From a virus: 64,000 nucleotides of DNA. The notes under the pieces are model-generated. The model worked only from the letters and a program-made list of their open reading frames with translations, was not told the DNA's origin and made no database searches. The DNA lies in IMG/VR virus record IMGVR_UViG_3300028883_000049, positions 1 through 64,000 of that record; one strand, given 5' to 3'. This document shows positions 3,835 to 28,456 of this stretch, piece after piece. Made by a program: the position numbers and the translations under genes. How positions within the stretch are numbered: position 1 is the first letter of the stretch; every line of letters begins with the position of its first letter.

Positions 3835-3861
3835 TTATCAACCCCGCTTTCAGGTCAGGAT

Positions 3862-4256: not shown

Positions 4257-4269
4257 AATCCATCCAAAC

Positions 4270-4297: not shown

Positions 4298-4334
4298 GTA
4301 AATTGAACTGTTACACTCACGAATGGAGGGGCTT

Positions 4335-5021
4335 ATGCGCACGATTATTTCCCTGTTTCTACTGCTGTCCGTTGCATCCGTATCCCATGCCGCTGTGATC
4401 GATGGCGTCCCGTCATGGCAAACAAACGGCGGGGCAGGGGCCGGAGCGCTGCAAATCCTCGGCTGGTACGATCTTCACGGCTACGACAACCTGTTTGCCG
4501 CCGAAGGCGAAAATATCTACACCCAGGGCGCTCTGCTCGCTGAACTCCAGGATTTCGACAGCTTCCTCAACATCAATCAATGGGGCGGCGTCGATGGCCG
4601 GGACATTCCCCCGGCTGTCGAGGACTTTGCAGCGTTCAAGGGCTACAACTTTGCCGCCGAATACATCACCTTTTTCTTCTTTTCCTTTGAAGATTTCATG
4701 GCCGAAATTGACGCTGGACGCCCGGTCAGCATTACCACGGACAACACCGAAACAGGATTTATCCCGATTGAAGTGGCAGGTGTCGGCTATGACATGATCG
4801 ACGGAGTTCCTCATTATGGGTTTATTTCCTCTCTCACTGGGCTGACCGATATCATCTGGAAACCATGGATCGAAGGATCGACCGAGTACGCTTGGGGAGT
4901 CACGGACGTCATGACCATCGCTCCACAAGCCGCCCCGGTCCCTGAACCATCGACCGTACTTCTGTTCAGTGTTGGAATCATTGGATTGTCCCTCCGATGG
5001 AGACTGCGCCAACCTTCTTAA
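4335..5021 (+). CDS. secreted PEP-CTERM protein (moron), copy 1
   Basis: 228 aa. Sec signal peptide at residues 1-19 and a C-terminal PEP-CTERM signal: VPEPST, a hydrophobic helix, then an Arg-rich tail. Host exosortase would be expected to process it and release it to the cell surface or exopolysaccharide. The middle (VPSWQTNGG...LQILGWYDLHGYDNL, and VPHYGF) looks like a C39-type papain fold, but the position where CGPTA-like active-site sequence is expected reads GGAGAGA, so it would be inactive. Start at 4335 with GGAGG upstream. It is the only plus-strand gene inside the late block, has its own promoter, and overlaps the 3' end of the convergent fibre gene by 44 nt. Confidence 0.8.
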   Translation: MRTIISLFLLLSVASVSHAAVIDGVPSWQTNGGAGAGALQILGWYDLHGYDNLFAAEGENIYTQGALLAELQDFDSFLNINQWGGVDGRDIPPAVEDFAAFKGYNFAAEYITFFFFSFEDFMAEIDAGRPVSITTDNTETGFIPIEVAGVGYDMIDGVPHYGFISSLTGLTDIIWKPWIEGSTEYAWGVTDVMTIAPQAAPVPEPSTVLLFSVGIIGLSLRWRLRQPS

Positions 5022-7017
5022 ATGTTCTTTCCGTCAACGTAATCGAATCGCTCAAACTGGATGATATGTTGTTAGCAGCATCCATCGCCCAGGCGTAAAG
5101 GGTTTTGCTGCCATAGCTGGAAAATGTGTAGCTGGTCTGTGCGCTTGATTGCCAGTCTGGATCTGATGTGCTCGGAGTTGTGGCTGATTCGTTCAGGAGG
5201 TAGTCAGTCACTGCGACATTATCCGTTGCAGTGAAGGTGTTGACTGAAACGGTTAAAGATGATCCAGTGGCCGGAATGTCGAATGCTGTGACTGTCGGGT
5301 CTGTTGTGTCTGCGCTCTCATTGACCGCCCAAACACCAAGCTCATCTATCCACATTGACTCTGATACTGGAGCACCGTCACCAATATAAGGGGCAAGGGC
5401 TATTTTGTCCCATGTTGCCCCTTCATATTCGCCAGCGGCGTATAGGACACTCTCGCTCTCAATCGCTAAATCTTCGTCTACCCAAAGACGCATAATTCCA
5501 TCAAAATTAGCCGTCCCAGATGTAAAAGTATTCAACTTTATGTAGGATGTGATTTTTGTCCAAGTGTTTGCAGGGATGCTTACGCTGCTGGATTTCCATG
5601 TGTTTGCCGAATACCAGCCACCTGAAGAATAACAACTTCCAGAGGTTGCCCCTGTTTCTGCATACGGTGTATTACACTGATTTGCAGACCTGGCTTCTGT
5701 TACAGAGGTCAAATCTTGTGGCGGTGTGCCTTCAGTGTCATTTACTCTCATCATGTCTTGATGAGCGATCTGAGGGTAATTTGTATAAGGGCTGCTAGTA
5801 TCTGCAAGCGCTTCAAAATAAAGATTACTGTTCGACCCTGCAAAACCCTGATAGGCCGTATCATCAGAAGATAGCACATGTATTAAGTGCGGGTGATACG
5901 CTTGCCCTGATCCTTGCCAGCCAGTATCATATTTAACATAGTATTCAATCAAAAATTCGTCTGTTTCGGCAGACAGATTGTTTCTGATTGCACTAAACCC
6001 TGTTGGCTGCGTCGCAGAGCTTGCCCACGTCCATTTCAGAGCATTACCTGAATAGCCACCAGCCTCTGTGCCTGTCGATGTTGTCCCATCGTACCAACTG
6101 CGACTTGTCCAGCTATCATCCTCGAAGGATTCAGAAAATAGACTTGTTCCTTTAGTCGGTATTGTTGTTAGAGGCCCAATCCTTCCGGTTGCCGATATAG
6201 CATAGTCATCAAAATCAACAGGATTACATCCAGAACCATCTAATATCCACTCTTGGTTTGATCCGAGAAGGATTCCAGAAATACCAGTCACGGAAAAACT
6301 ATCTCCACCAAAGTCAACACTTTGCTCATCAATGATCTTGGTGTCATCTATCCACATTTCAGCAATGCCATCTGTTCCGTCCGTATCTATCTTTATATGT
6401 GCCTCGTAATAATGCCATTGACCATCGCCCTCTAAATCACTATTATTCATGACGGTCGCCCAACCCTGTGAAGATGTTGGGTTTGTCACCGATCCCATCC
6501 CCTGCTTTGCAAAGACAAAACCATCAGCACCAGCCCACTCAACAATGACTTCAACGTCAGTTGAGAGTGGATACAAATCAATATAAAGGAGTTTGTCGTA
6601 ATGTAAACCACTGTTTGGATCCCATTGTAGGGATGTTGGAAACTTCATGTACCACCTCACCCAAATCTCGTCTGGGTGGTCATCAAGAAGTACATACAGC
6701 CCCCCGCTACCATCGTTAGACCCTTGTGGACTACCACCATCACCATACCAGTGCCGTTGGCCTAACCCACCACTACCGTTAGGGTTGTTTGCCGAAGAGG
6801 TTATTTGTTCATAATTTCCGCAAGAGTCTGGCTGCCCAAGTGCTTCCTGAACTCCACCACAATCAATGGGGTTTCTATAATTTGGATCGCTCTCGTCTTT
6901 TGTCCACTCCGTACACTCAGTTTCATCGAAACTTGTTGACCACGGCAAGGTGACGCCAGCAAAAACTGTAAACGGGAAAAATAGCAGTATCAAATATATG
7001 AGAGCTTTATTCAGCAT
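4978..7017 (-). CDS. secreted/virion jellyroll protein, copy 1
   Basis: 679 aa. A predicted Sec signal peptide (residues 1-20, ending VFA) precedes two concanavalin-like (LamG/polysaccharide-lyase-type) beta-jellyroll regions, about 30-270 and 295-560. An Ig-like segment around 570-670 contains the DNVAVTDYLLN pattern. Likely carbohydrate binding or degradation. The gene lies directly after a fibre-like gene and overlaps it by a few nt, as expected of a tail-fibre or receptor-binding module. The signal peptide is odd for a virion protein. ATG 7017 is preferred over TTG 7026 because the GGGG ribosome site fits it. Confidence 0.65.
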   Translation of the reverse strand: MLNKALIYLILLFFPFTVFAGVTLPWSTSFDETECTEWTKDESDPNYRNPIDCGGVQEALGQPDSCGNYEQITSSANNPNGSGGLGQRHWYGDGGSPQGSNDGSGGLYVLLDDHPDEIWVRWYMKFPTSLQWDPNSGLHYDKLLYIDLYPLSTDVEVIVEWAGADGFVFAKQGMGSVTNPTSSQGWATVMNNSDLEGDGQWHYYEAHIKIDTDGTDGIAEMWIDDTKIIDEQSVDFGGDSFSVTGISGILLGSNQEWILDGSGCNPVDFDDYAISATGRIGPLTTIPTKGTSLFSESFEDDSWTSRSWYDGTTSTGTEAGGYSGNALKWTWASSATQPTGFSAIRNNLSAETDEFLIEYYVKYDTGWQGSGQAYHPHLIHVLSSDDTAYQGFAGSNSNLYFEALADTSSPYTNYPQIAHQDMMRVNDTEGTPPQDLTSVTEARSANQCNTPYAETGATSGSCYSSGGWYSANTWKSSSVSIPANTWTKITSYIKLNTFTSGTANFDGIMRLWVDEDLAIESESVLYAAGEYEGATWDKIALAPYIGDGAPVSESMWIDELGVWAVNESADTTDPTVTAFDIPATGSSLTVSVNTFTATDNVAVTDYLLNESATTPSTSDPDWQSSAQTSYTFSSYGSKTLYAWAMDAANNISSSLSDSITLTERTFKKVGAVSIGGTIQ

Positions 7018-9172
7018 GGATGGCAACCCCTATCGCGACGTTACCTCCAGAAGCAGAAGTAAATGTTTTTGAAATGCTTCCTGACAAACCTGTTTGGTAG
7101 TATGCGCCGAGCGATGAACTGCCAGAAGAGTCATAACTTATCTGCGTCAATCCGTCATAATCACTCAAAGATATGCCTCCATCATCTGACCCAAAAAGAC
7201 CTATAAATATATCAGCTGAAGAAGTTGTTACCGAGCCTGTGCTAACTGTCCCTGTCGCTGTGTTGGAGTTGTAGCCGCTTATTGACCAAGACCCTGATGT
7301 CTTTGAATATCGAGCAACAACAGCATTCAAATATGTCCCACCTGTTTGTCCAAATGTGTAATCAGTTGGCTCGCTACCAGTTGCAATTTTGTAGGCAGTT
7401 GTCATGTTTGATGATCCGTTAGCAATGCCACCAGATGTAATCTCTGTGTAGCCATCAAAGGTATCCCAAGCCCCTGACGCATCGCTCACAAGATAAGCAA
7501 ACAGCAAATCGCCTTCTGTTGTACCCGTTGGTTTTGTCACTGTAATTGATTCAACACCGCTGCTGGTGGCATTGGCGGCGTAGCTTTCATAGGCTAAAGT
7601 AACGCTCCCACTCTGCGTACTGTTATTCGTCACGCTCCCACTGGTGATCGAAGCAAGGTCATCCCCTGCAGAGTCTTCCCAACCGTCCCCAGGTTGTGTG
7701 TAGTCAACGTCACATGTATCGCCGCTATTAACTGTCGAACCGAGGGTATAAACAAGCGTGTCTGTCGTATCTCCGCTTGAGTAGGTCATGGTTATATCTG
7801 TTCCGGCTGTCGTACAATCGAGATTCCATCCACCATTTCCACCAGTACCGATAGTGATTGCTTCGGACGCAAGCAAGGAGATTGTCGCTCCGGTCGTTGG
7901 GATTGTGGCGCTGGTCAGCGTTGGTGGTGTTGGTGTTGGATTCGACCAGTCGGCAAATGTGACCGGGTAGCGATCCCATGAGTCTGTTGATTCGCAGAGA
8001 TAGATATAACTGGTGTCGAATGATCTTTGTCCGGTCGTGCAAGTATCATCACTGTAAGTCGGAGCTGTGACATAACCAGATCCAACAGATACAGCGTCAA
8101 CCTCGTCTTTTAGCTCTTCAATCGCGGCTTGGACATTGGCCGATGTGATTGTCAAATAGGTTGTAAATGGCACTTCACCAGCATTCTGATCATCCGTCCC
8201 CGCTGATAAGGGAGCCCAACTCGATCCGTTGTAGATCTGGAATACAAACGATGAATCGAGGTAAACATCTCCAGCGGAGGGCGTGAATGTTGGCGCGATT
8301 GAATTGTAGAAATTAGCGTAATGCTCACCGTCTGAAGCGGAACTCTCAAAACTCGGGGCCGATACCGCACCGGTGAAAGTTGCTCCGGTTAAGGCTGCAT
8401 AAGTGCTATCATGATTATGGCTCAGTAAACTGTAAAACCCAGCATGATCGCCCCAGCTAAAAGCGGTATCCCAATTAACCTCCTGTGTCGGCGTCGGGAA
8501 AACTCTCGTTGCGGTTTCAGCCAGATCATCAGCATCCAGCACAACCACGCCGGTCTGTCCGTTGACCGAATCGACAGCGCCAGATCCGGTCATGTCAGCG
8601 CAGGCCCAAACAAACCCATCCCACGCGGCCACCTGGCTGGCCGTACAATTCAGATTTTCGAGTGTATCGGTCGTATCAACAATTGTGTTCGGATCGGCAC
8701 AGGTCCAGGCACCAGCATCCTTATAGGGCACCTCACCATCGACACAGGCAGGCAGTGAGTCGCCACCACTGGTTTTCCAGTCTGTTCCAAGCACAGAATC
8801 AATCGCGGCAATGATCTCGGTCGGTGTCATATCGCCGGTCGCGTTCGCTTCGATTGCATTGAGTTTTGACAGTAGGTCATTAGTCAGAGCGTTTGTGTCG
8901 GCTTCACCCTCATAAGCCGTTTTGATACCAGACCCGTAAGCGTCAACAATGGTCTGCACAGCCGTTTGGATATCGCCGGATTCGATCAGGGCGAATATTC
9001 GCGATAGCGGGACCATGTACCTGGAGGTCGAATCTGCCGAGGCAATAACACCGGTTGCGACAACCGCGCTATAGTCCCGCTGCTCCCAATCGGTCGGGGC
9101 AATCTCATTCGTTTCGGCAAAAACCGAACCCGCAAACAAACACATCAAAAAGACAATAAACAGTTTTTTCAT
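7007..9172 (-). CDS. tail-fibre-like protein with signal peptide, copy 1
   Basis: 721 aa. Starts with a clear Sec signal (MKKLFIVFLMCLFAGSVFA). It continues with fibre-type repeats (VNGQTGVVVLDADDL, SHNHDSTYAALTGATFTGAV), a short segment of the YLDSSFVFQIYNGSSW type seen in phage fibres, then Thr/Ser/Gly-rich beta domains to the end. The motifs are those of phage tail-fibre proteins; the signal peptide would instead send it to the periplasm. The start is set at the MKK methionine; upstream in-frame codons lack an RBS. Its C-terminal 420 codons are duplicated at the right end of the window. Confidence 0.7.
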   Translation of the reverse strand: MKKLFIVFLMCLFAGSVFAETNEIAPTDWEQRDYSAVVATGVIASADSTSRYMVPLSRIFALIESGDIQTAVQTIVDAYGSGIKTAYEGEADTNALTNDLLSKLNAIEANATGDMTPTEIIAAIDSVLGTDWKTSGGDSLPACVDGEVPYKDAGAWTCADPNTIVDTTDTLENLNCTASQVAAWDGFVWACADMTGSGAVDSVNGQTGVVVLDADDLAETATRVFPTPTQEVNWDTAFSWGDHAGFYSLLSHNHDSTYAALTGATFTGAVSAPSFESSASDGEHYANFYNSIAPTFTPSAGDVYLDSSFVFQIYNGSSWAPLSAGTDDQNAGEVPFTTYLTITSANVQAAIEELKDEVDAVSVGSGYVTAPTYSDDTCTTGQRSFDTSYIYLCESTDSWDRYPVTFADWSNPTPTPPTLTSATIPTTGATISLLASEAITIGTGGNGGWNLDCTTAGTDITMTYSSGDTTDTLVYTLGSTVNSGDTCDVDYTQPGDGWEDSAGDDLASITSGSVTNNSTQSGSVTLAYESYAANATSSGVESITVTKPTGTTEGDLLFAYLVSDASGAWDTFDGYTEITSGGIANGSSNMTTAYKIATGSEPTDYTFGQTGGTYLNAVVARYSKTSGSWSISGYNSNTATGTVSTGSVTTSSADIFIGLFGSDDGGISLSDYDGLTQISYDSSGSSSLGAYYQTGLSGSISKTFTSASGGNVAIGVAIHAE

Positions 9173-9182
9173 GACTCGCCCT

Positions 9183-9338
9183 TTACTGGTTAAAAGCCCA
9201 GGGATACTGATTAAGAGGAACATCCTGCTGATTGAAAGCCATCACCATTGTCGGCACCTGCAAGCCTTCCGGCGGCAAATCAACCTCAATCTCCACATGG
9301 TATAAGTTACCGTCGGTTTCAATCTCGATATCAATCAT
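9183..9338 (-). CDS. 51-aa phage protein
   Basis: Small acidic beta-type protein starting MIDIEIETDGNLYHVEIEV. It overlaps the stop of the preceding 113-aa gene (ATGATTGA) and ends 10 nt before the fibre gene start, so it is coupled in the structural operon. Probably a minor virion or assembly protein; family unknown. Confidence 0.6.
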   Translation of the reverse strand: MIDIEIETDGNLYHVEIEVDLPPEGLQVPTMVMAFNQQDVPLNQYPWAFNQ

Positions 9339-9672
9339 GAGCACCGCTCCCCTCTCTCACCCGCGCAAAGATAGAACCCAACCGGAACCAGCTGCTGGAC
9401 GTCCCCTGGTCGGTTAGAACATCAACCTGAGTCGTTCCCGCCTCATCTCCGGCAGCAACGTCAACCACAATCGCCGGAGTCACAGCATCGACCGAAATAC
9501 CCCCGTACAACAACGATCCATCAGCCTGTTTTGCTGGTGCCGAAAATGACCAGCCGCTGATATCCGGTGCCGATTCCCCAGACGGCGGAACCAGGACAAT
9601 TCTCACGCGGATATTTTCATTGGTGTGAACCTTCGGGCGTACCTTGAACGCTCTATACTCGTCATAGTCCAT
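9331..9672 (-). CDS. phage structural-region protein, 113 aa
   Basis: Beta-rich protein (IRVRIVLVPPSG, then DISGWSF) of the kind found beside phage fibre genes. It directly follows the glycosyltransferase gene with a 1-nt overlap. The N-terminal sequence and size resemble small phage proteins with an immunoglobulin-like fold. No specific function. Confidence 0.6.
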   Translation of the reverse strand: MDYDEYRAFKVRPKVHTNENIRVRIVLVPPSGESAPDISGWSFSAPAKQADGSLLYGGISVDAVTPAIVVDVAAGDEAGTTQVDVLTDQGTSSSWFRLGSIFARVREGSGAHD

Positions 9673-11198
9673 CAGTGTCCCCTCTTCCAGTTGCGGTAAA
9701 CCTTTTTCACCGCGTCATAAATCGTGTCAGCCGAAATATTCACCGCGCATCTGGCCGCGCCCGACATCTCATCGATGTTGCAAAACGCGTCGCCGTAATG
9801 CAGCCGGTGACACGGATAGCACGGGCATTGTTCCGGTGTTAGCGCCTGCACGTTCGACCAGTGTTTGGTCAAGTTATTTTTAGATGAATGCGACAGCATG
9901 ATCACCTTGTGCGGCGTCTTTTCCATACCAACCGCGTTCAGCACGCCCGTTTCAGGCCCGATCACTAGGTCAACGTTCTGCGCCAGAACCAGAGATTCAC
10001 GGATTGTCAGCTCACCCGAAAGACACGAAACCCGACCCTCGTTTTCCCAACCCTGCTCAAGGACCCGGCACTTATCATCACCCACCAGGTAAATCTGAGC
10101 ATCCGGCATCTCCAGCAGAATACGTGCGATCACCGTGTCCTGGTGTGGTGTAAACTTATGGATCGAACTCCCGGCCAAAGCCCACACCACGTTAAATTCA
10201 TTTTTGTTTAATTGCTGCTTGGCAAAAAACTCTTCTTCCCGTGCGGCATAAAAAAGCTGCGTTACCTCAAACTCCACCCCGGCCAGTTGACAGGTCCATT
10301 CGTGATAGTTCAGGTTCATCCGCTTCTTGCGCACATCATGCGGCCAGGTATGATTCGGTCGTCCCGGTATCGCCAGCAGCGTTCCCTCAATTGATTCAGA
10401 CAGGTTGATAAATTTAGCAAAGCGCTTTTCCTGCTCTGCCCAAAATGCTACCAGCTCATTGTTTGGAACCTGATCCTGATCAACGATATACCAGTCATCA
10501 ATAAAAGGATCGTTGCGTAAAACGTTTTGCCCCTTCGGCGTGGTCATCACCGTCACATGGTATCCCTGCTCTTTTAAACGCGGGAACACCAGCGCCGTCT
10601 GCAGCATATCGCCGAACCCGCCGAACCGGCAGACGCAAACCTTCGGTTTATTCGGCTCGCCGATTCCCGGCTTCACAACCATATCCATCCCCGGCTCAAG
10701 CTTTTGATAAGCCTCGAACAGGCTGTACTCGATTCCACCGCTCCGCTCTTCGCATTCGACTTGTTGCCATGCCCCCTCCAGCAACTTTTCGATATCGCCT
10801 GGATAGATATCGTGCTTATGGTCCGGATTCGCTCCCGGCTCCCCGCACTTCGGATACAGGTTCGCGCTCGGCACGTACAGGCACAAATACCCGCCCGGCT
10901 TGATCACCCGGCCCCACTCGGCCAGCGCCGCGCCCATATCCGGCATGTGCTCCAGCAAATGCGACGTGAAAACAAAGTCCAGGCTGTCATTCGCAAACAT
11001 CGATAAGTCATCAGCCTCGGACACGATATCCGCCGCGCCCTGACCGAAATGGTGCCCATTGTCGATCCCGATAAAATGCGGATAGGCTTTTTCCATGCCA
11101 CAGCCGATCTCCAACCCCCTTCCCCTGGTATACCGGGGAAGAAGGTATTTGATCTTGCGACTTTCAAAACCCTGCGGACCGTCAATTGACCAAGACAT
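9672..11198 (-). CDS. SAM methyltransferase-GT9 glycosyltransferase fusion
   Basis: 508 aa. Residues about 1-165 form a class I SAM-dependent methyltransferase: LEIGCG motif I, GIDNG, FTSHLLEHMPD and IKPGGYLCLYVP. From about 185 the protein resembles glycosyltransferase family 9 (ADP-heptose:LPS heptosyltransferases): CRFGGFGDMLQTALVFPRLKEQG is the acceptor-side start, and WALAGSSIHKF plus DLVIGPETGVLNAVG the nucleotide-sugar side. Cys residues cluster near the end (CPCYPCHRLH). It sits inside the structural operon between capsid and fibre genes. With the gmhA-hldE-gmhB cassette at 25-28 kb it suggests transfer of a heptose, perhaps methylated, to a virion or surface acceptor. The acceptor is not known. 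Confidence 0.85.
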   Translation of the reverse strand: MSWSIDGPQGFESRKIKYLLPRYTRGRGLEIGCGMEKAYPHFIGIDNGHHFGQGAADIVSEADDLSMFANDSLDFVFTSHLLEHMPDMGAALAEWGRVIKPGGYLCLYVPSANLYPKCGEPGANPDHKHDIYPGDIEKLLEGAWQQVECEERSGGIEYSLFEAYQKLEPGMDMVVKPGIGEPNKPKVCVCRFGGFGDMLQTALVFPRLKEQGYHVTVMTTPKGQNVLRNDPFIDDWYIVDQDQVPNNELVAFWAEQEKRFAKFINLSESIEGTLLAIPGRPNHTWPHDVRKKRMNLNYHEWTCQLAGVEFEVTQLFYAAREEEFFAKQQLNKNEFNVVWALAGSSIHKFTPHQDTVIARILLEMPDAQIYLVGDDKCRVLEQGWENEGRVSCLSGELTIRESLVLAQNVDLVIGPETGVLNAVGMEKTPHKVIMLSHSSKNNLTKHWSNVQALTPEQCPCYPCHRLHYGDAFCNIDEMSGAARCAVNISADTIYDAVKKVYRNWKRGH

Positions 11199-11680
11199 TA
11201 AGCTTTTCCACCCTGTTGTAGATCCAGCTGTTCGTCAGTGCTTGAAGCCACCCCAACGTTTTTCTTTCCCCTGCTCGTGGTTTTCTTGTCGGTTTGTGCG
11301 GTCTCGTCCGCCTTAACATCAAGCTCATCGATCAGACCGTTCAAGCGCTTGATTTCAACCTCAGCCGTATCAAGCTGTCCCTGAACTTCAGCTTTTTCCG
11401 CATCGGCATTGTCCTTGTCGGCAACAGCCCGCTCAAGCTGCTCTTTCAGCTCAGCATTCTGCTTGCCAAGTTTTTCAATCTCGGCAACCAATACAGGGAC
11501 CTTGGCGTCATCGACAACCACGGGAGCCTGAACCTCAATCGATTCAATCTCCTCCTGCCCAGGCAGCTCTTTTCCTTCCACGTCGAACAGAATTCCGAAC
11601 TGCTCGTAGGCCGCACGACCACTGCCATAAACCTGGCCGTATGGTGCGTTTTTATCAAGCTTACGCTTTCCCTTTGCCAT
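11198..11680 (-). CDS. coiled-coil head-region protein, 160 aa
   Basis: N-terminal motif APYGQVYGSGRAAYEQ (about 12-28), then a coiled coil at about 60-120 rich in Glu/Lys, and a low-complexity Lys/Ser/Gln tail. Immediately downstream of the capsid genes and overlapping the fusion gene by one base. Probably a head-associated or completion protein, inferred from position. Confidence 0.6.
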   Translation of the reverse strand: MAKGKRKLDKNAPYGQVYGSGRAAYEQFGILFDVEGKELPGQEEIESIEVQAPVVVDDAKVPVLVAEIEKLGKQNAELKEQLERAVADKDNADAEKAEVQGQLDTAEVEIKRLNGLIDELDVKADETAQTDKKTTSRGKKNVGVASSTDEQLDLQQGGKA

Positions 11681-11981: not shown

Positions 11982-12920
11982 TCAGGCTGCAGAATCCCAC
12001 TTGACGATCCGCTCATCAGCAGCGGCCAGGCGGTTTTTCGCGTACCCGCCAAGGTAGTACCAGGCCACCCCGCGACTGCGGCCATAATCCCCCGGCAACT
12101 TACCGCGCACCTCTTCAGGCACCGCAATGCCCTCACTGGTCGCATCTTCACCGAAGAAGAAAATCCAGTCACTGCCCCCATTACTCCAACTCCCCTTGGC
12201 CACATGGGTTTGCTCCACATAGCGGGTGTTTTCATAACGTCCGATCTCGCCGTTCATGATCATCTGGAAACCCTGGGGCGTATACTGGTGTATCCCCTCC
12301 AGATCGTTCTTAAACGTGCGCAGCGTGGTCGGCCAGGCAATCCCCATATAATCGTCACCCATGTATGGCGGAATATTCCGCTCCTTCATCAGGTCGACAA
12401 TCGCTTTAGCATGGTCCTTGTTGAACGCCACATTGTTGGTTGCCGTTGCCGTCCCGTTCAGGGTCAGGGTTACGGCATCGGTCGCCGTTCCGCCGGTCGG
12501 CACAACCCGCAGCAAAGTGCTGTTCATCTGCGCGTGGTTAGCGATATCGAACGCCTTCTTCGCGTCGTTCTTCATCGCCGTGTTCACCAGGTTACGCACC
12601 GGGATCTCCGAAAGATCATCCAACACGCCAGTGTACGGTACGCTGTTCCCGTATTCCGTCACCGTCATGGTTCCCTGGGTGATTGTGAAGTTTGTTTCCG
12701 GCATGGTACTGGTTTCCGTCAACACGGTCCCCTGCGTTGCCACGTCAGAAACGACATCCCAATGAAAGAGCTGCCCTTTGTGCTTGCCGACTGCATCATG
12801 CAGACTGGCAAACTGGCGAAACTTCACCATCGGCTGCACCACGTTGCGCAGCTCTCTTGAAAGGTTTTTGGCGCTTAAATAACCGCCAAGGGTGTTTGTC
12901 ACCCAAAGCTGTCCAGCCAT
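11982..12920 (-). CDS. major capsid protein
   Basis: 312 aa. Gene order (terminase, portal, scaffold, this gene) and composition identify it as the coat protein, of the P22-coat/N4-gp56-like HK97-fold group. The start MAGQLWVTNTLGGYLSAKNL and segments such as SVPYTGVLDDLSE and DWIFFFGEDATSEG are typical of that group. The ATG at 12920 is preceded by AAGGAGG; an upstream in-frame start is not supported. The 110 bp upstream holds no gene, consistent with an independent strong RBS. Confidence 0.85.
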   Translation of the reverse strand: MAGQLWVTNTLGGYLSAKNLSRELRNVVQPMVKFRQFASLHDAVGKHKGQLFHWDVVSDVATQGTVLTETSTMPETNFTITQGTMTVTEYGNSVPYTGVLDDLSEIPVRNLVNTAMKNDAKKAFDIANHAQMNSTLLRVVPTGGTATDAVTLTLNGTATATNNVAFNKDHAKAIVDLMKERNIPPYMGDDYMGIAWPTTLRTFKNDLEGIHQYTPQGFQMIMNGEIGRYENTRYVEQTHVAKGSWSNGGSDWIFFFGEDATSEGIAVPEEVRGKLPGDYGRSRGVAWYYLGGYAKNRLAAADERIVKWDSAA

Positions 12921-13030
12921 ATTTCGTTCCTCCCTTCCGTCTCCCGACGGTAGCTTTGAAGGGCGCGGCCCGCCTTCGAGCCGCAACCCAATAGGTTTAC
13001 GTTAATCCGTCCGCCTCCCGGCGGTCGCTG

Positions 13031-14358: not shown

Positions 14359-16503
14359 TTAATCAGAAACAAGCTCAGCCTGACGTCCCGACTCAATCCC
14401 CGTCATCATGCCACGCTGCGGGTTTGCCGGACTCATCGGCGACGTGTTCTTGTCAATCGTCGCCTCTTCCGGCAGCAGCAACCGCTCTGTTCTCGGCAGC
14501 GAATCTCCACCGTCCTGATCTTCAAACCCGGCGCTCCTGGCAATCGCGTCAGCCACCGGAGCAACACCCGGCACCGTCACTGCGGTCTGTGCCGTATTCA
14601 TTGCTCCAAACAGTGATTCAACCCGCTTATTCGTCGTCTCAACCCGCTTTAATTCGGTTTCTTCACGAATCTTCCCGGCTTCTGCCAACAACTTCTCAAC
14701 CTGGGCCTGCACCACTTCTGGCGGATGTTTCGCATCTAACGCCTGCTGTAGCTGCTCGATCATCTGAACAGCCTGAACCAAACGCGGATCTTCCTGCTCC
14801 TCTTCATCCTGTTGCGGAATCAGGAATCGGCTGCCATCGCGGTATCCACTCTTGCCGAAAACCTCTTTGACAATCTCCCGCTCTCCCGGAGACAACTGCC
14901 GCTTCAAAAAGTCCGGTCCCAGAATTTCCGACAACAATTTCATAGCCGCCACAAACCGCCGCAGTTGCATTTGCGGATTAATCGCCCCGATCCCCACGTT
15001 AACCCCAAGCAGCACCTCGTTGGTCAACAACGCCAGAGTCACCTTTTCCAGCGGTATCCCAGCCGTCATGGCCGCCGCTTTCAAGATTTTCTCATCGTTC
15101 TCGTGCGTCTGCTCAAGTATCAGAATTTGTCGCAAAGTCGGCTCCACCCAGGTTTCGACAAACGTCCTCAGCTTATATTCAGACACCTGGTCCGCGCTCG
15201 AATTCAACAGCTCCATACCGCCGACCGTTTCGTTCAGTTGACGGTTTGTCGCCACGCTCGAACCGGAAAAAGACCCCATCAAATCATCAAAGTCCAGGTT
15301 CAAACGGTCCTGTTCCTGGTAACTGCTGGCCGTCGCGTCATCCGTCGTCACCACCTTGACGTCGCTGTTCGGCTCATCCATCAACGTCACCGACGCCGGA
15401 GAATTCCGCGTCAGCGAACGCAGATCGATATTCTTGCCGCGCTTGGCAAAGTAGCGCTTGTTCAGCCTCAGCTTGACGTTATCGATCCGCAGGTTTGCAA
15501 CGTCGTTGATTTCCGTCTGGATATCGCGTGACAACTCACACTCGCTTGACTTATAAGCCTTGTGCGCTTCGACAATCGAAAAACCAACAGTTACAGGACG
15601 TCCCTGAGGGTATTCATCCTCAACCATGGCTGGATCAGACAACAACTTTGTATCTCCCAGGGTGTAATAGAAAATATCGAAACCCTCGACCTCGATAATA
15701 TTCTGATGCACCCAGACGATAGTAAAATCATTGTTTGCGCTATTGACCTGCTTCGAATCCGTTCCGTTATTCTCCCTCGCCTGGCGCATGGTATCACTTG
15801 TCTTGCTCGCGCTTAAAATCGTTCCATCCGGGTAATAACGCCACTTCGGCTCATCCCCATCTCGCCCTGGAAGCATTCGCGCTCGTACATCCTTCAGATA
15901 CATCGGCCAGTAAATAATCAGATATGGCGACGTGTTCACCACGTCACGCCAATCCGCCGCCGGGTCAAAACGCACATTTTCAGGCGGTAACAAAGTAATA
16001 TCCGCACGGTCGATCTTTTTCTTTTTATTGTATTTCCACTGCTGAAACGACGCGACAATCCCCACCGCCTCGGATTCCTGGTAAGCCCCCTGACAAGTCA
16101 GGAACCACGGCAATCCATAAGGGTGCGGACGCGTCAAGCGTATCTGAAGCAACGCCTGTTGAAACTTGGCGCTGTCGATCTGTTCAGGATCATCCTTATC
16201 CACCGGCTGGCAACTGACCACATCCTCGGTTGAGAAAAAGGCTCCGGCTGCCATTGCCTCGTCTTTACGGATTGCAGATCGTGTTTTCGGGCGGAACAAT
16301 TTGCTTTTCAGGCGGTAAGAATCAGTGAAATATTTTGAGCCTTCAGGATGTTGACTCTGAAACTGGCGGATATCCTTTATCATCCGACTGCGAATATTCG
16401 CGTCGAAAAAATTGGATGACGCCGTGTTGGCATCGCTTGCCAGCTTGATCCAGAACGCATCATTCGGTTTTTCCGTTGTCTGCAATGCCTGCTCTTCGCT
16501 CAT
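14359..16503 (-). CDS. portal protein
   Basis: 714 aa. Resembles podovirus-type portal (head-tail connector) proteins: N-terminal DIRQFQSQHPEGSKYFTD and FRPKTRSAIRKDEAMAAGAFF, a central beta region with TLLPPENVRFDPAADWRDV, and a helical C-terminus with a long coiled coil (about 560-640). It forms the ring through which DNA is packaged by the terminase two genes upstream. The ATG overlaps the previous stop by 4 nt. Confidence 0.85.
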   Translation of the reverse strand: MSEEQALQTTEKPNDAFWIKLASDANTASSNFFDANIRSRMIKDIRQFQSQHPEGSKYFTDSYRLKSKLFRPKTRSAIRKDEAMAAGAFFSTEDVVSCQPVDKDDPEQIDSAKFQQALLQIRLTRPHPYGLPWFLTCQGAYQESEAVGIVASFQQWKYNKKKKIDRADITLLPPENVRFDPAADWRDVVNTSPYLIIYWPMYLKDVRARMLPGRDGDEPKWRYYPDGTILSASKTSDTMRQARENNGTDSKQVNSANNDFTIVWVHQNIIEVEGFDIFYYTLGDTKLLSDPAMVEDEYPQGRPVTVGFSIVEAHKAYKSSECELSRDIQTEINDVANLRIDNVKLRLNKRYFAKRGKNIDLRSLTRNSPASVTLMDEPNSDVKVVTTDDATASSYQEQDRLNLDFDDLMGSFSGSSVATNRQLNETVGGMELLNSSADQVSEYKLRTFVETWVEPTLRQILILEQTHENDEKILKAAAMTAGIPLEKVTLALLTNEVLLGVNVGIGAINPQMQLRRFVAAMKLLSEILGPDFLKRQLSPGEREIVKEVFGKSGYRDGSRFLIPQQDEEEQEDPRLVQAVQMIEQLQQALDAKHPPEVVQAQVEKLLAEAGKIREETELKRVETTNKRVESLFGAMNTAQTAVTVPGVAPVADAIARSAGFEDQDGGDSLPRTERLLLPEEATIDKNTSPMSPANPQRGMMTGIESGRQAELVSD

Positions 16504-17206: not shown

Positions 17207-17348
17207 AAGCCCCGTTGCCCGACTCAAAGCGCCGCCCGTTGCTGAAGCGATAACCCGAAGCGGTCTTATCTTCCTTGCGCACATCCACCGCTTTCACGAT
17301 CTGAGAAAACTGTGCCTGAGACGACTTGATTTCTTCTGTGCTTTCCAT
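17190..17348 (-). CDS. 52-aa phage protein
   Basis: Short hydrophilic protein beginning MESTEEIKSSQAQFSQIVKA. A strong RBS (GGAGGTGA) and a TGATG overlap with the terminase stop support it. Unrecognised. Confidence 0.6.
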   Translation of the reverse strand: MESTEEIKSSQAQFSQIVKAVDVRKEDKTASGYRFSNGRRFESGNGAYEPEA

Positions 17349-18985
17349 CACATCACCTCCGGTTCCAGTAACTGCTCATCGATAATGATCGGCGGCCTGT
17401 AGTCCATATCGTAAATCCGGCTGCATGAATCGAGAAAATCATCATGTTTGCTGAACGGGTAAACCAGGTACTCATCCAGAAACATCTTATTCAAACTGTA
17501 ACGGTTCCCCTCATGGTCCCGCCGGAAGACCGGTTTTAAAATTCTGTAAGCCTCCCCCTGCTCTCTCATCTTGATTTGTCTGGACGATTCAGCCTTAACC
17601 ACGTTTCCCTGCTCGTTCTTTCTCATCACCACCTCGATCAAAAAGAACTTACCGTTCGAAAAATCAGGAACAAGGCGTTGAATCCGGTCTTCCTTTGCCG
17701 CTGGCGTATCCTGCGGCCAGTTCAGCTCCTTAATTTCAAAATGGTCCCCGGTCAGTTCCATCTTCTCTTCAAAGTGCTCAAGGTCGCTGCGCATCCCGAA
17801 CCGTTCATATCCGACTTCCACGCTCTGTACCCCCGGTTGTTGCATCCAGTATTTACGTAAGGCCGTCATGTTTTTCCAGCGCTCCGTTAAGCTCATCTTG
17901 TGGCAGAAACCATCAACCAGGTACTTGTTTCGTGCCGCGTCGACCGCGATCACCGACATCGCTGTGTTGTCACTATTTTTCTTTTTACTGCTGGCCGGGT
18001 CTACCATAATGTAGATATTCACCGTTCCCGGACGAATATCAATGAACTTCAGTTCCTCTTTCAGGAACATGGCCGCCTGGCCCTCGGTCGGGTTTTGCAG
18101 CATCTGCGCCGCCAGGGTCGAACGCTGATTGATCTTGACTTTCGCCCACTCCTCCGGCGTTAAAAAGACCGGGTTCCCTGTTTTCTTGCCATCGTCAGTC
18201 GCCGGATAAACACGTGCCTTCAAAATATTGTTATCAATGATCTCACCGTAGGTATCAGCGAAGCTATAGCGGGTACCAATATGCCATCTCCGGTCTGATT
18301 CCTTTGACTTCAGGTTGTCCGACAGCTCCCAGCATTCCGTGGTTTTCCTCACCATGTCCGGGCCGGTCACACTCTCACGCGTTACAACATCATCGTAAAT
18401 ACGCAGCTTGTAGTGAGCACCCGTCGGTTGACCATCCGTCAGTCCGTTGGCTTCAATCGTACCCTCTTTCGGGTTCGATTCACGCCTCACATCAATCCGG
18501 TACTGGTCCCAGCTCGCCCCAGCTCGCCTCGCATCCCGAACTGGATCGGCCCACAACACGTCCGGGTAAGTCGCTTTCAACTCCTCATTGCTTTCCAGCT
18601 CATACTTGATCTGCCCCAGGAACTTTGCTGAAAGCTTTTTCACATGAGCGAAAATACCAATGGTAATTTCAGGGTCGATCAACAACTCCTGAATACTTCC
18701 CGCGAACGTGATAATTGTCGACTTGTAATGATACCTTGCCCACAAATCCAGACACTCATCCGGCTCAGCCTCAACTTCACGGCAACGCTCATATAGCCAC
18801 GGATGAATCGCATCCTTCCGATGCAGCAACCAGGTCAGCAGAAAATACCGATCAACCCGTCCCAGAGCAGCCTTGCCTCGTGGTCCAAACTTATCAAGAA
18901 TCGATTGCCAAAGATCAAACACCCGGTTAAAAGAAGCGGACTGGATCTCCGCAACGATATCTTCGGGTAATTCAAGCCGATCCAT
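17348..18985 (-). CDS. terminase large subunit
   Basis: 545 aa. ATPase part: WARYHYKSTIITF is an atypical Walker A-like segment near residues 82-95, and LRIYDDVVTRE the Walker B. The nuclease part has the acidic residues in IMVDPASSKKKNSDNTA (about 325) and PFSKHDDFLDSCSRI (about 515). It cleaves concatemeric DNA and drives packaging through the portal. It overlaps the small subunit gene by 14 nt. Confidence 0.9.
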   Translation of the reverse strand: MDRLELPEDIVAEIQSASFNRVFDLWQSILDKFGPRGKAALGRVDRYFLLTWLLHRKDAIHPWLYERCREVEAEPDECLDLWARYHYKSTIITFAGSIQELLIDPEITIGIFAHVKKLSAKFLGQIKYELESNEELKATYPDVLWADPVRDARRAGASWDQYRIDVRRESNPKEGTIEANGLTDGQPTGAHYKLRIYDDVVTRESVTGPDMVRKTTECWELSDNLKSKESDRRWHIGTRYSFADTYGEIIDNNILKARVYPATDDGKKTGNPVFLTPEEWAKVKINQRSTLAAQMLQNPTEGQAAMFLKEELKFIDIRPGTVNIYIMVDPASSKKKNSDNTAMSVIAVDAARNKYLVDGFCHKMSLTERWKNMTALRKYWMQQPGVQSVEVGYERFGMRSDLEHFEEKMELTGDHFEIKELNWPQDTPAAKEDRIQRLVPDFSNGKFFLIEVVMRKNEQGNVVKAESSRQIKMREQGEAYRILKPVFRRDHEGNRYSLNKMFLDEYLVYPFSKHDDFLDSCSRIYDMDYRPPIIIDEQLLEPEVM

Positions 18986-19634
18986 TGCTGTGCTTCTGAA
19001 ACTCGGCTCTCAGTTCGTTCATTTTCGCCGCGTCTTCCGCAGCGACAACACTGTTTGTTTCTATCGGTCCACCATCAGGTCCGCTGATTTCCTTGCGTTC
19101 CTTGTGTAGCCCCAATATCTTCGCCAGCTCTATCGCTGCTCCACCCCTCGACGGGATTGAAAACAGCGGAACAACATTGCCGTCCTTATCCACATCAAAC
19201 CCGATATCAATAATGCTTTTAATTTGTGTCTCCAACTCCGAGAACTTTTTCGGCTGAACTTTTCCGTCATCACCAACATCGATTAACTCATCCAGATCCA
19301 TTTTAAGTATTTTCCCGTGGTACTGAAGAATCTCATCCGCCGTAACGTTATATCTTCGTTTCAGCTCACCACGGATCTGATCTATTCTCGATTTCACCTC
19401 AGGATTTGTTAGGAGTTTACTTGCCTCAACCCGAGCTGTTGAATCCTTAACCTTCGGTTTTACCTTTTTGTACGCACCATACCCGTTGTCACCGCGCAGA
19501 ACGAATTCCCAACAAAAACGCTCTTTCCACGGTGGACTCAATACGATCACTTCATAGCCCATCTCCTCTTCCATGCTCGGAAGAACAACCTGGCCAGCGA
19601 CCTTCTGGTTGTTTTCCACCCCAGCTTCAGACAT
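18972..19634 (-). CDS. terminase small subunit
   Basis: 220 aa, terminase-2-like. FCWEFVLRGDNGYGAYKKV (about 40-60) and EASKLLTNPEVKSRIDQIRGELKRRYNVTADEIL match the pattern of small terminases that recognise packaging sites. Start preceded by a GC-rich hairpin-like stretch and by the late control element at 19681-19732. First gene of the head operon. Confidence 0.85.
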   Translation of the reverse strand: MSEAGVENNQKVAGQVVLPSMEEEMGYEVIVLSPPWKERFCWEFVLRGDNGYGAYKKVKPKVKDSTARVEASKLLTNPEVKSRIDQIRGELKRRYNVTADEILQYHGKILKMDLDELIDVGDDGKVQPKKFSELETQIKSIIDIGFDVDKDGNVVPLFSIPSRGGAAIELAKILGLHKERKEISGPDGGPIETNSVVAAEDAAKMNELRAEFQKHSNGSA

Positions 19635-24823: not shown

Positions 24824-25111
24824 TCACGAAAGATTCGGACTGTTCAGGCCGACAACTCCTCCAATTTCTTGCCGTAACGCCGGATGCATGAACAAACCAT
24901 ATGAAGTTTTGATCACGTTTCGGCTTGGAATTTCCTTTAAAACTCGCTTGGTTTTCACCCACGGCTGAAATGGCTCAACCACAGGATGCAATACCGGTTC
25001 GATCCACCTCTCACGAAAGGTTTTTTCAACTTCAACCTCAACCGTATCGGTTAAATAACGACTTTCAAAAACCGGAAGGTTTCTAAAATAACCACTTAAT
25101 CCTGGGTGCAT
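24824..25111 (-). CDS. conserved phage protein, 95 aa
   Basis: Starts MHPGLSGYFRNLPVFESRYL and ends with LFMHPALRQEIGGV. This outline is familiar from small proteins of many phages. It has no known function. Overlaps the GmhB stop by 16 nt, so it is translated with the heptose genes. Confidence 0.6.
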   Translation of the reverse strand: MHPGLSGYFRNLPVFESRYLTDTVEVEVEKTFRERWIEPVLHPVVEPFQPWVKTKRVLKEIPSRNVIKTSYGLFMHPALRQEIGGVVGLNSPNLS

Positions 25112-25620
25112 TTTTTCTCCTTATCCAAAGCAAAAAGAAAATCGACCGCCTCACCAAGACCATAAAACGGCCCATGATTATGAATCAGCAAAGGACAGCA
25201 CCCGGCCCTGATCCCAGCCTGAACATCCGACAATTGATCCCCCACCATGTACGACTGCTCCAGGTCGATCCCCAGACCCTTCGCCGCCTGCAGCAGCATT
25301 CCCGGTTTCGGCTTGCGACACTCGCAACCCTCGTTCGGACCGTGCGGACACAGATAAATCCCGTTTAACTCCACCCCATATTCCCGCAGCAGCTCACGCA
25401 TATGTTCATGCAGCGCGTCAACAGTCTCCAGGCTGAAAAAACCCCGCCCTATACCCGACTGATTCGTCACCACAACCAACAGAAATCCCGCATCCTGCAA
25501 CCGCTTTAAAGCCTCCGGTACTCCCGGCAACAGTTCAAACTTGTCCCGCTCGATCACGTAGCCGTTATCCACGTTGATCGTCCCGTCCCGATCCAGAAAC
25601 ACCGCCCGTCTACCCGACAT
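25096..25620 (-). CDS. gmhB: D,D-heptose 1,7-bisphosphate phosphatase
   Basis: 174 aa, HAD-superfamily phosphatase. FLDRDGTIN holds the nucleophile and acid Asp; VTNQSGIGRG is motif II. The zinc-site Cys lie in CPHGPNEGCECRKPKPG, which also gives the motif III Lys, and MVGDQLSDVQAG is motif IV. It removes the C7 phosphate of D-glycero-D-manno-heptose 1,7-bisphosphate in the cytoplasm. Length is normal for the family. Overlaps hldE by 11 nt. Confidence 0.93.
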   Translation of the reverse strand: MSGRRAVFLDRDGTINVDNGYVIERDKFELLPGVPEALKRLQDAGFLLVVVTNQSGIGRGFFSLETVDALHEHMRELLREYGVELNGIYLCPHGPNEGCECRKPKPGMLLQAAKGLGIDLEQSYMVGDQLSDVQAGIRAGCCPLLIHNHGPFYGLGEAVDFLFALDKEKKCTQD

Positions 25621-27019
25621 AACGCCTCACCACCTCGTCGATAATCCCGCTCGTCGATACCCCGTCCGTCAATGCAATCAAATCAACCCTGCCGCCATTC
25701 ATTTCGACAAACTTCCTTCCGACAACTTCATGATTTGCATAGTCCGAACCCTTCACCAACACATCGGGTTTCACCGTCTTGATCAGAACCAACGGTGTAA
25801 TTGCATCAAAAATCGTCACGTAATCCACGCAATCCAGCGCTGCCAACAGCTGCGCCCGTTCGCCCTGATTCAACACCGGTCGCTTACTGCCCTTCAACGC
25901 CCGTACCGAATCGTCAGAGTTCAAGCCCACAACCAGCACATCCCCACGTTTCCTGGCTTCTTTCAACAAGCGCACATGTCCAGCATGCAACAGATCGAAA
26001 CACCCGTTCGTAAAAACAATACGATCATTCCTCTTTCGATGGTTCGCCATTAAATCTCTGATCTTGCCAAAAGCAACAATCTTGCTCGCATGCTCATCGC
26101 TGAATCTCCTCAGCAAATCATCCGCCGTTATCGTGGCCGTCCCCACCTTGCCAACAACAATTCCCGCCGCCGCGTTCGCCAGTTCAGCGGCCTGGTGTAA
26201 CGACAAACCCGCCGCCAGACCAACACCAACGCACGCCAGCACCGTATCCCCAGCGCCAGAAACGTCAAACACCTCCCGCGCCTCCGCCAGAAAATGAGTC
26301 TCTGCATTGTCCGCCAACAATGTCATTCCATGCTGACCTTGCGTCACCAAAGCCGCAGAAATACCGACGGACAGATACTTTTCTCCAGCCAGTTTAAATT
26401 CCTTGGCGTTCGGCGTAATCAGCGTCGCCCCTTCATAGCGGGAAAAATCCCTCCCCTTCGGATCGACCACCACTGGGACATGAATCTCCTGACTCAGGCG
26501 AATAACCTCACTTAACACCCGATCCGTCAAAACCCCCTTGGCATAATCCGAAACCAGCACCACATCCACTTGTGGAAGAACTTTTTTAATGTAATCGAGC
26601 AGCAAACCTTCCATCCCGTCAGAAATCGGCTCTTTCTCATCCAAATCAACCCGAACAACCTGCTGATCCCCGGCAAGCACTCTGGTTTTAACCGTGGTCT
26701 CACGACGGACATCAACCAACAGTCCGTCGTGACCAACTCCACTCCGACTAAACAACAGCGGTAACATTAGCGCCCCATCGCCACGCCCCGTCACCGAAAC
26801 AATCTTCACCTTGCACCCCAGCGCCGCCAGGTTCGCAGCTACATTCCCCGCCCCACCAAGCCGGGTTTCCTCGCGCCGAACAGCCACCACCGGAACCGGA
26901 GCCTCAGGCGACACCCGATCCACCGTTCCAAAAATGTACCGGTCAAGCATCACATCCCCCACCACCAGCACGGATGCTTTGCGAACCCCGGTTAAAACTT
27001 TTTCAATATCTATTTCCAT
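25610..27019 (-). CDS. hldE: bifunctional heptose-7-P kinase / heptose-1-P adenylyltransferase
   Basis: 469 aa, full length for HldE. The N-terminal PfkB/ribokinase domain (about 1-320) has GGAGNVAANLAALG and the catalytic GAGDTVLA. The C-terminal cytidylyltransferase-fold domain (about 335-469) has FTNGCFDLLHAGH (the HxGH nucleotide-binding motif), NSDDSVRALKG and VKGSDY. It phosphorylates heptose 7-phosphate at C1 and, after GmhB acts, adenylylates heptose 1-phosphate to ADP-D-glycero-beta-D-manno-heptose. Normally an LPS-core gene; its location inside a phage early operon is unusual. Confidence 0.94.
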   Translation of the reverse strand: MEIDIEKVLTGVRKASVLVVGDVMLDRYIFGTVDRVSPEAPVPVVAVRREETRLGGAGNVAANLAALGCKVKIVSVTGRGDGALMLPLLFSRSGVGHDGLLVDVRRETTVKTRVLAGDQQVVRVDLDEKEPISDGMEGLLLDYIKKVLPQVDVVLVSDYAKGVLTDRVLSEVIRLSQEIHVPVVVDPKGRDFSRYEGATLITPNAKEFKLAGEKYLSVGISAALVTQGQHGMTLLADNAETHFLAEAREVFDVSGAGDTVLACVGVGLAAGLSLHQAAELANAAAGIVVGKVGTATITADDLLRRFSDEHASKIVAFGKIRDLMANHRKRNDRIVFTNGCFDLLHAGHVRLLKEARKRGDVLVVGLNSDDSVRALKGSKRPVLNQGERAQLLAALDCVDYVTIFDAITPLVLIKTVKPDVLVKGSDYANHEVVGRKFVEMNGGRVDLIALTDGVSTSGIIDEVVRRYVG

Positions 27020-27044: not shown

Positions 27045-27314
27045 TCAGGCAATGTGCCTACGATGAACAACGGCACTTTTAGGTATCACCATGTCGCCAC
27101 AACTTTGCTCCTCAGCGTGGATAAGATCGTTTGCCGGGGAAAGATGAGGGGCAAGAATTATGGCTTCATCAGTTTCCTTTAATATCCATCCGACTGAGAA
27201 GCAGCGGTGTGCATGAGGTTCTGCAGCTTCGGTTTCGCGCCACTCAGCACTCACGCCATAACTGTCCCGCCATTCCAGATACACAAGTTCATAATGACTA
27301 ACAAGCACATTCAA
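27045..27314 (-). CDS. conserved phage protein between gmhA and hldE
   Basis: 89 aa if started at TTG 27314, which overlaps the gmhA stop and has AAAGGAGGAA upstream. The core YGVSAEWRE...HRCFSVGWILKETDEAIILAPHLS is a pattern I associate with small phage proteins. Biochemical role unknown; it is not a known heptose-pathway enzyme. Confidence 0.6.
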   Translation of the reverse strand: MNVLVSHYELVYLEWRDSYGVSAEWRETEAAEPHAHRCFSVGWILKETDEAIILAPHLSPANDLIHAEEQSCGDMVIPKSAVVHRRHIA

Positions 27315-27907
27315 ATCCGTTCCTCCTTTAGTTTGAACATCCGCTCCTCGATCAGCTCGCACAAAATATGGATAATCAGAATATGAACTTCCTGAATCCG
27401 TGCCGGGTCCATCGACGGAACCACCAGCGGGTGTTCAACCATCTGTGCCGCCATCCCGCCAGCTTTCCCCAGCAAACCAAAAGGGACGCAGTCCATCCTG
27501 TTTGCCGCATTCAACGCCAGCAGAATATTCTCCGATTCCCCGCTCGTCGAAATCACAAAAACAATGTCACCCGGATTCGCCAGCGCCTCCACCTGGCGTT
27601 GAAAGATCCGGCTGAAATCGTAATCGTTGCCCACCGCCGTCAGTGTCGCCACATCAGCATTCAGACACACCGCAGGCAAAGCCCCGCGCTCGCGCTTAAA
27701 GCGTCCCACCAGCTCCGCCGCAAAATGCAGAGCATCCGCCGCCGAACCGCCATTCCCCATAATCAGAATCTTCTTCCCCGCCAGGATCGCATTACCCATC
27801 TCTTCGGCCACAACCTTGATCGCAGGCGACAACTCCGCCGCTGTCCGTCTCACCGCTCGGCCATGCTCACCCATCACATTCCTGATCCATTGCGTTGTGT
27901 TATTCAT
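27311..27907 (-). CDS. gmhA: sedoheptulose-7-phosphate isomerase
   Basis: 198 aa, SIS-domain isomerase. GNGGSAADALHFAAEL and STSGESENI are the sugar-phosphate binding loops. Glu and His residues in HFAAEL and in EVHILIIH match the metal and catalytic positions of GmhA. It converts sedoheptulose 7-phosphate to D-glycero-D-manno-heptose 7-phosphate, the first pathway step. ATG 27907 overlaps the stop of a 21-codon ORF (ATGAATAA), so I prefer it to the GTG at 27949. Confidence 0.92.
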   Translation of the reverse strand: MNNTTQWIRNVMGEHGRAVRRTAAELSPAIKVVAEEMGNAILAGKKILIMGNGGSAADALHFAAELVGRFKRERGALPAVCLNADVATLTAVGNDYDFSRIFQRQVEALANPGDIVFVISTSGESENILLALNAANRMDCVPFGLLGKAGGMAAQMVEHPLVVPSMDPARIQEVHILIIHILCELIEERMFKLKEERI

Positions 27908-27965
27908 CCACATTTTCGACATCCATCGCATAAGTCTCTTTGCATCCACAAAGCGGACAGGCCAT
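27900..27965 (-). CDS. possible 21-aa leader peptide or truncated zinc ribbon
   Basis: MACPLCGCKETYAMDVENVDE with a CPLCGC motif. The stop overlaps the gmhA start. It may be the head of a degraded zinc ribbon or serve only to couple translation into gmhA. Confidence 0.3.
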   Translation of the reverse strand: MACPLCGCKETYAMDVENVDE

Positions 27966-28421: not shown

Positions 28422-28456
28422 CAACAATCTCTCCTCTGCGTTAAAAATAAAAAAGA

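Follow-up and report, generated by a model that had tools for sequence, protein, structure and literature searches.

A methyltransferase fused to a GT9-like glycosyltransferase in the head operon of uncultured tailed phages, with a possible link to heptose

What role can a sugar-transferring enzyme have among the genes that build a phage head? The question is raised by a gene in the IMG/VR virus record IMGVR_UViG_3300028883_000049 (64,479 bases), of which the window analysed here comprises the first 64,000 nucleotides. A preliminary description had read the gene as a SAM methyltransferase fused to a heptosyltransferase-type domain of family GT9, had placed it between capsid and fibre genes, and had suggested a two-part system in which ADP-heptose is made early in infection and transferred late, to a virion protein or to host lipopolysaccharide (LPS). 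Is the second half of the protein a GT9 enzyme? Do heptose genes accompany the fusion in related phages? And what might the sugar be attached to?

The fusion gene and its neighbourhood

The fusion gene (MT-GT9; 9672..11198, minus strand) begins with ATG and has 508 codons for 508 amino acids. It shares one base with the ORF upstream (11198-11680) and one with the ORF downstream (9331-9672), and because of these overlaps with both neighbours it is read as part of a single operon. The gene order, all on the minus strand, is terminase small subunit (18972..19634; PF03592, E 1.5e-15), terminase large subunit (17348..18985; PHROG 38, E 7.7e-37), SU10-type portal protein (14359..16503; PF23899, E 1.2e-21), major capsid protein (11982..12986; PHROG 1357, E 4.8e-15), a 160-amino acid gene, MT-GT9, a 113-amino acid gene and fibre-like ORFs. 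The placement between capsid and fibre genes therefore holds, with one gene between the capsid and the fusion. This intervening gene (11198..11680, minus strand) encodes a candidate acceptor or head protein; the gene directly 3' of the fusion (9331..9672, minus strand), taken from the ORF list, has no match in Pfam or PHROGs. Capsid identity to relatives is 58-80%, and as the alignments begin at residues 18-26, translation of the capsid probably starts some 22 codons into the ORF as listed. The notion that the fusion is the most conserved virion protein is ruled out, its identity being 65-70%. Of the fibre-like ORFs, one (7007..9223, minus strand; 738 amino acids) has 25.7% Ser+Thr and a signal-peptide-like amino terminus, which is unusual for a cytoplasmic virion protein, and the other (4978..7026, minus strand; 682 amino acids) has a weak polysaccharide-lyase match.

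Most fully compared relatives carry, directly 3' of MT-GT9, a homologue of a 203-amino acid gene found in the window at 57356..57967 (minus strand). Next in the relatives' operon are counterparts of a 256-amino acid head protein (56584..57354, minus strand; PHROG 399, E 8.2e-23) and of a 543-amino acid internal virion protein (54956..56587, minus strand; PHROG 511, E 1.1e-119).

Several other features of the window may be recorded here. Near-identical direct repeats with fibre genes lie at 4.3-8.45 kb and 60.03-64.17 kb (offset 55,725; 3597/3600 matches in the tested stretch), with flanks that are unlike on both sides; either the fibre cassette is duplicated or a genome of ~55.7 kb has been joined up in assembly. 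Within the repeat, an ORF at 4323-5021 (plus strand), antisense to a fibre-module ORF, matches the PEP-CTERM motif (E 4.7e-6), and its start is signal-like. A 3737-amino acid ORF (37463-48676, minus strand) matches CLCA_X and PLxRFG domains, and a tRNA-Arg (48542-48630) is called on the opposite strand across its 5' end. Both a serine recombinase (1366-2850, plus strand) and a tyrosine integrase (34908-36011, plus strand) are present in the record, together with a CII-like regulator at 32464-32829.

How close is the C-terminal half to GT9?

The amino-terminal half (residues 1-183; 10650..11198, minus strand) is a class I SAM methyltransferase, both by its Pfam match to Methyltransf_11 (E 1.1e-9; 39.2 bits, with a cut-off of 21.2) and by its modelled fold, a class I (Rossmann) fold with 3dli as best structural match (Z 14.8). 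Sequence searches of PHROGs, Pfam, NCBIfam and the PDB matched this half of the protein only. As sequence families see only the methyltransferase, the family searches leave the identity of the other half (residues 184-508; 9675..10649, minus strand) unsettled, and its assignment as GT9-type is based on deep profile-profile comparison and on structure. PF01075, the GT9 family in Pfam, has no match in the protein or in the whole record, and a divergent phage relative (L247) scores 17.7 bits with a cut-off of 22. A fumarate-hydratase match in the C-terminal half of the window protein is weak (E 1.7) and was taken as chance.

When 80 phage sequences of the glycosyltransferase (GT) half were compared with 33 cellular GT9s by hhalign, the result was 99.5% (E 2.9e-22, 281 columns). 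Controls with 20 column-shuffled alignments gave at most 0.7% and a reversed alignment 0.3%; comparisons with a single WaaF (0.4%) or WaaC (0.1%) sequence were not significant. Modelled as a whole, the protein reached only a mediocre pLDDT of 71.6, yet GT9 was already the top structural match. The AlphaFold2 model of the GT half, built with 64 sequences, has a pLDDT of 93.8 and a pTM of 0.91. Its top match is 3tov (Z 24.1, rmsd 3.5, 284 aligned), and it also matches WaaF 1psw (Z 23.1, rmsd 3.7, 271 aligned), TibC (Z 20.7, rmsd 3.0, 269 aligned) and WaaC 2h1h (Z 20.4, rmsd 4.1, 263 aligned). Chloroplast NDH subunits of the same fold (7wff, 9grx, 7f9o) give Z 19-20, and the next structural class after GT9, the UDP-GlcNAc 2-epimerases, starts from Z 14.4. 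Other GT9-like proteins, at 10-16% identity, are found among predicted viral structures. According to the model, then, the GT half has a GT-B fold with GT9 enzymes as its nearest structures. The reading of the gene as a methyltransferase-GT9 fusion is borne out by the Methyltransf_11 match, the hhalign result and the structural matches at Z 20-24.

Does the active site persist within this fold? Residues D197 and K348 align with D13 and K192 of WaaC and are invariant in 80/80 phage sequences. In TibC, an excerpt of PMC4358343 gives D110 as the catalytic base and K230 as contacting the beta-phosphate. By these alignments, the GT half keeps the catalytic machinery of ADP-heptose transferases. Residues E416, T417, G418 and N421 are also invariant in the 80 aligned phage sequences. 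They form an ETG-x2-N motif in 80/80 phage members (counted as aligned columns; a regular-expression count catches other ESG strings in some rows), whereas 28/33 cellular GT9s have D[ST]G-x2-H. The WaaC residues D261 and H266 presumably contact heptose. The replacement of D[ST]G-x2-H by ETG-x2-N suggests that the transferred sugar may differ from that of the LPS heptosyltransferases; the pocket would be not quite like theirs. The preliminary description had proposed structure prediction of this half as a way to look for an ADP-heptose pocket: the prediction supplies the GT9 fold, and the alignments supply the catalytic residues, but the motif differs from that of the LPS heptosyltransferases.

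To which known enzymes is the protein comparable? WaaC and WaaF share its GT9-type GT-B fold (Z 20-23) and have the catalytic Asp and the phosphate-binding Lys at matching positions; unlike them, the phage protein is fused to a methyltransferase, lies in a head operon, is missed by PF01075 and carries ETG..N in place of D[ST]G..H. TibC, of the BAHT type, heptosylates protein using ADP-D,D-heptose (excerpt of PMC4358343). It resembles the phage protein in its GT9-like catalytic domain (Z 20.7), the Asp/Lys pair and four C-terminal cysteines, but the N-terminal part of TibC is a beta-barrel where the phage has a methyltransferase, the cysteine spacing is x2-x15-x11 as against x2-x9-x10 in the phage, and the phage enzyme apparently has no autotransporter partner. 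The phage cysteines (460, 463, 473 and 484), candidate counterparts of the four-cysteine iron finger of BAHT enzymes, are present in 79-80/80 phage sequences, and similar quartets occur in 11/33 cellular GT9s. As it falls short of the PF01075 cut-off and has neither the D[ST]G..H motif nor the BAHT beta-barrel, MT-GT9 is no formal member of GT9 or BAHT. The most fitting description of its GT half is as a sister clade of GT9, similar to GT9/BAHT enzymes in fold and catalytic residues.

Distribution of the fusion and of heptose genes

With the whole protein as query, three viral contigs are found, along with a single phage-like region of a Geobacteraceae MAG; an alignment query finds 17 viral contigs, and the GT half alone at least 180. 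From the last group 80 contigs were taken (69 clusters at 95% identity). The capsid gene lies upstream on the same strand in 75/80 of these loci, while in the other five no more than 3.3 kb precedes the GT. The GT has a methyltransferase upstream in 77/80 loci, and in 72/80 the two share an ORF. Three GT contigs (L158, L162 and L175) have IMG numbers that seem to be styled like those of isolate genomes. Might such constancy reflect the choice of the GT as bait? The portal, used as a single-sequence bait, found only a near-identical contig (L003), and a capsid alignment was therefore chosen for an unbiased test. Among the best 80 of 588 contigs found with it, some of them common to the GT-selected set, 57 carry the GT downstream of the capsid, and 22 that are without it have less than 4 kb there. 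Where at least 4 kb is available, the GT is present in 44/45 contigs, a figure that speaks for near capsid relatives, as the bait alignment had been built from contigs with the GT and the best 80 of 588 were taken. The sole exception among these 45 informative contigs, L297, has 5.2 kb downstream of the capsid and no GT there. GT identity also correlates with portal and TerL identity (Spearman 0.59 and 0.79, respectively).

Recurrence of both fusion and position in dozens of phage contigs shows that the arrangement is not chance. Among 395 genomes of the MAG's phylum, five have a match. Prophage relatives at 32-35% identity have the GT near a capsid gene in two of three loci, the third being without a capsid match. 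Against 50,697 annotated phage records the GT half has no match, the matches found being to the methyltransferase only. In two of the five matches from the MAG's phylum (L245 and L246) the GT stands without a methyltransferase; L245 has tandem GT9-like genes (3228-4298 and 4772-5758) after a divergent capsid. Extra ORFs between methyltransferase and GT are seen in L139 (9289-9969), L173 (3915-4568) and L174. The L139 ORF has a GIY-YIG match and that of L173 a weak NUMOD3 match only; by these matches it is as if homing endonucleases target the conserved MT-GT gene.

The window carries three genes of ADP-heptose synthesis on the strand shared with MT-GT9, 13.9-16.8 kb upstream of it. These are gmhA, for sedoheptulose-7-phosphate isomerase (27311..27949, minus strand; NF010546, E 6.4e-58, and TIGR00441, E 2.6e-53, both below cut-off); hldE, for the bifunctional heptose-7-P kinase/heptose-1-P adenylyltransferase (25610..27019, minus strand; above cut-off with TIGR02199, just below it with TIGR02198 at 343 of 345 bits, and below it with NF008454, E 4.1e-144); and gmhB, for heptose-1,7-bisphosphate phosphatase (25096..25620, minus strand; NF006506 and TIGR00213, above cut-off). 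NCBIfam thus confirms that donor genes lie some 15 kb from the fusion. For the epimerase HldD there is no fitting ORF in the ORF list or in the families searched. Should HldD indeed be missing, synthesis would end at ADP-D-glycero-D-manno-heptose, the compound with which TibC was crystallised according to the excerpt of PMC4358343. Just upstream of gmhA is a polynucleotide-kinase-like P-loop gene (27978-28523, minus strand).

Do heptose genes travel with the fusion? For the most part they do not. HldE is present in 0/17 viral records with the MT-GT9 fusion and in 1/50 GT contigs, a set that overlaps the 17, and GmhA is present in 2/50. No heptose genes were found in 80 capsid-selected loci within the fetched stretch. 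Conversely, HldE relatives exist in at least 575 viral contigs, and in 80 HldE-selected viral loci neither the GT of MT-GT9 nor head genes were found within the fetched stretch. The Geobacteraceae MAG has the fusion in its phage-like region and gmhA and hldE only on another contig (C8), where they are presumably the MAG's own. As a fixed pair that makes heptose early and transfers it late, the two-part system is not supported, with HldE missing in 17/17 and 49/50 and GmhA in 48/50. It is a special case of a broader arrangement, in which a GT9-type enzyme encoded in the head operon has a methyltransferase fused to it and would usually draw its donor from the host.

Two divergent relatives, however, place heptose genes inside the virion operon. 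In one (G033; L161) gmhA (10978-11544) has MT-GT on one side and the following structural gene on the other, and overlaps each by 4 bases. In the other (G043; L239) overlapping genes run from TerS through hldA and gmhA to TerL (11984 to 8194), and hldC and gmhB are elsewhere in the record; the heptose genes are confirmed by NCBIfam. They show 39-47% identity to those of the window, and with hldA and hldC being split this suggests a separate acquisition in G043. At least the first 100 bases of G043 recur near its opposite end; the idea of a circular record with a 1.18-kb repeat is unsupported, 472/1180 positions matching ungapped. GmhA is more frequent in GT contigs (2/50) than in phage records (11/50,697; Fisher p 7e-5, indicative only, since two collections that differ in kind are mixed), and for HldE the comparison is 1/50 with 75/50,697 (Fisher p 0.07). 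Partial matches to phosphoheptose isomerase, kinase and nucleotidyltransferase genes (71% of the query) are borne by cyanophages, e.g. P-SSM2, but the GT half has no match in that phage collection. Most relatives, being without heptose genes, must use a host donor or another donor. The link to heptose is partly supported. As for the fusion being a consumer of ADP-heptose, the catalytic machinery of GT9 and the heptose genes in the virion operons of G033 and G043 speak for it and the differing pocket motif against it.

Acceptor, competing explanations and significance

What is the acceptor? The evidence comes mainly from gene position, and from it we infer the acceptor, as we infer the donor and the methyl target. 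Virion glycosylation would lead one to look for a transferase gene that keeps a constant position among the virion genes, and this is what was found (75/80 GT-selected loci; 44/45 near capsid relatives). Because the gene is so nearly constant a part of the head operon, a virion protein is, of the two acceptors named at the outset, favoured over host LPS, which fits such a position less well. By inspection of relatives, the capsid/MT-GT region looks like a collecting place for glycan-tailoring genes. Beside the capsid or MT-GT are TylF-type methyltransferases (L180, L160, L248 and L259), an FkbM methyltransferase (L159), another methyltransferase (L203), a sulfotransferase (L200), GT2 glycosyltransferases (L105 and L188) and Gfo/Idh and hexapeptide transferase genes (L187). 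An ORF of L202 considered as a sulfotransferase has no Pfam match and was set aside. Many relatives have, by eye, small Thr/Ala/Gly-rich proteins encoded 3' of the capsid, and these are candidate acceptors.

Could the enzyme act elsewhere than on the particle, or not act at all? Late modification of the host LPS core, which would block superinfection or keep progeny off debris, finds an argument in WaaF and WaaC being among the closest structures, and the tyrosine integrase and CII-like gene make a lysogen plausible. Yet exclusion genes are usually accessory and expressed in lysogens, whereas MT-GT9 has a fixed, near-universal head-operon place (44/45) and one-base overlaps with both neighbours, and the explanation is improbable. 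Decoration of phage DNA bases is very improbable: T4 DNA is glucosylated by GT-B enzymes, and the polynucleotide-kinase-like gene adjoins gmhA, but the thymidylate synthase/hydroxymethylase family that would be looked for in a T4-type hypermodification is found in 0/50 records, the window's own included, and the GT is placed with the capsid and not with replication genes. GT9-like subunits of chloroplast NDH complexes (7wff, 9grx, 7f9o), which are not known to be active enzymes, are a precedent for a non-catalytic protein with a structural or assembly role; with the catalytic Asp and Lys and the TG pair invariant in 80/80 phage sequences, and a methyltransferase fused or linked in 77/80, such a role can hardly be credited here.

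A different NDP-sugar may be placed on the virion, the heptose genes of the three phages serving something else. The ETG..N motif where cellular GT9s have D[ST]G..H would agree with this, as would the many contigs without HldE (49/50) or GmhA (48/50) and the Gfo/Idh and hexapeptide genes of L187, which are typical of other NDP-sugar pathways. It is nonetheless unlikely, given that gmhA overlaps MT-GT9 itself in G033, that the full pathway is present in G043, and that the characterised GT9 structural matches (WaaC, WaaF and TibC) are ADP-heptose enzymes.

The preferred reading is of a head-module enzyme that transfers a heptose-type, probably methylated, sugar to a virion protein, a proposal for which belief and doubt are evenly balanced. 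The GT9-type half would move a sugar, most likely heptose from an ADP-activated donor, to the capsid, a small adjoining head protein or a fibre during virion production, and the fused methyltransferase would probably methylate the transferred sugar. The donor would usually come from the host pathway; the window phage and at least two others have their own donor-synthesis genes, probably to raise supply. Particle shielding, stability or adsorption may be the biological role. The more complete proposition, that an uncultured tailed-phage lineage adds heptose, and probably a methyl group, to its own heads via a near-universal head-operon enzyme of the GT9 sister clade, and that some members independently acquired a complete ADP-heptose pathway, is tentative and invites rather more doubt than belief.

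A few phages of actinobacteria are known to have glycosylated capsids. Mycobacteriophages Che8 and Rita, as cited in an excerpt of PMC11256854, encode glycosyltransferases of their own that are believed to modify the capsid; the same excerpt places the glycosylation genes of Maravista near the genome 3' end, whereas MT-GT9 stands just after the capsid and is a GT9-type enzyme fused to a methyltransferase. In the literature searched, which covers few subscription journals, no phage MT-GT9 fusion or virion heptosylation is described. If the proposal is true, protein heptosylation would exist outside the autotransporter enzymes, and in one member the ADP-heptose pathway would lie partly within the packaging genes. 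A near-constant head-operon GT with a fused methyltransferase would make particle glycosylation basic to a large phage group, one that is missing from isolate collections, as the unmatched GT half in 50,697 phage records indicates. It would supply an enzyme that installs heptose on proteins, and would open the question of what phages gain from sugar-coated heads.
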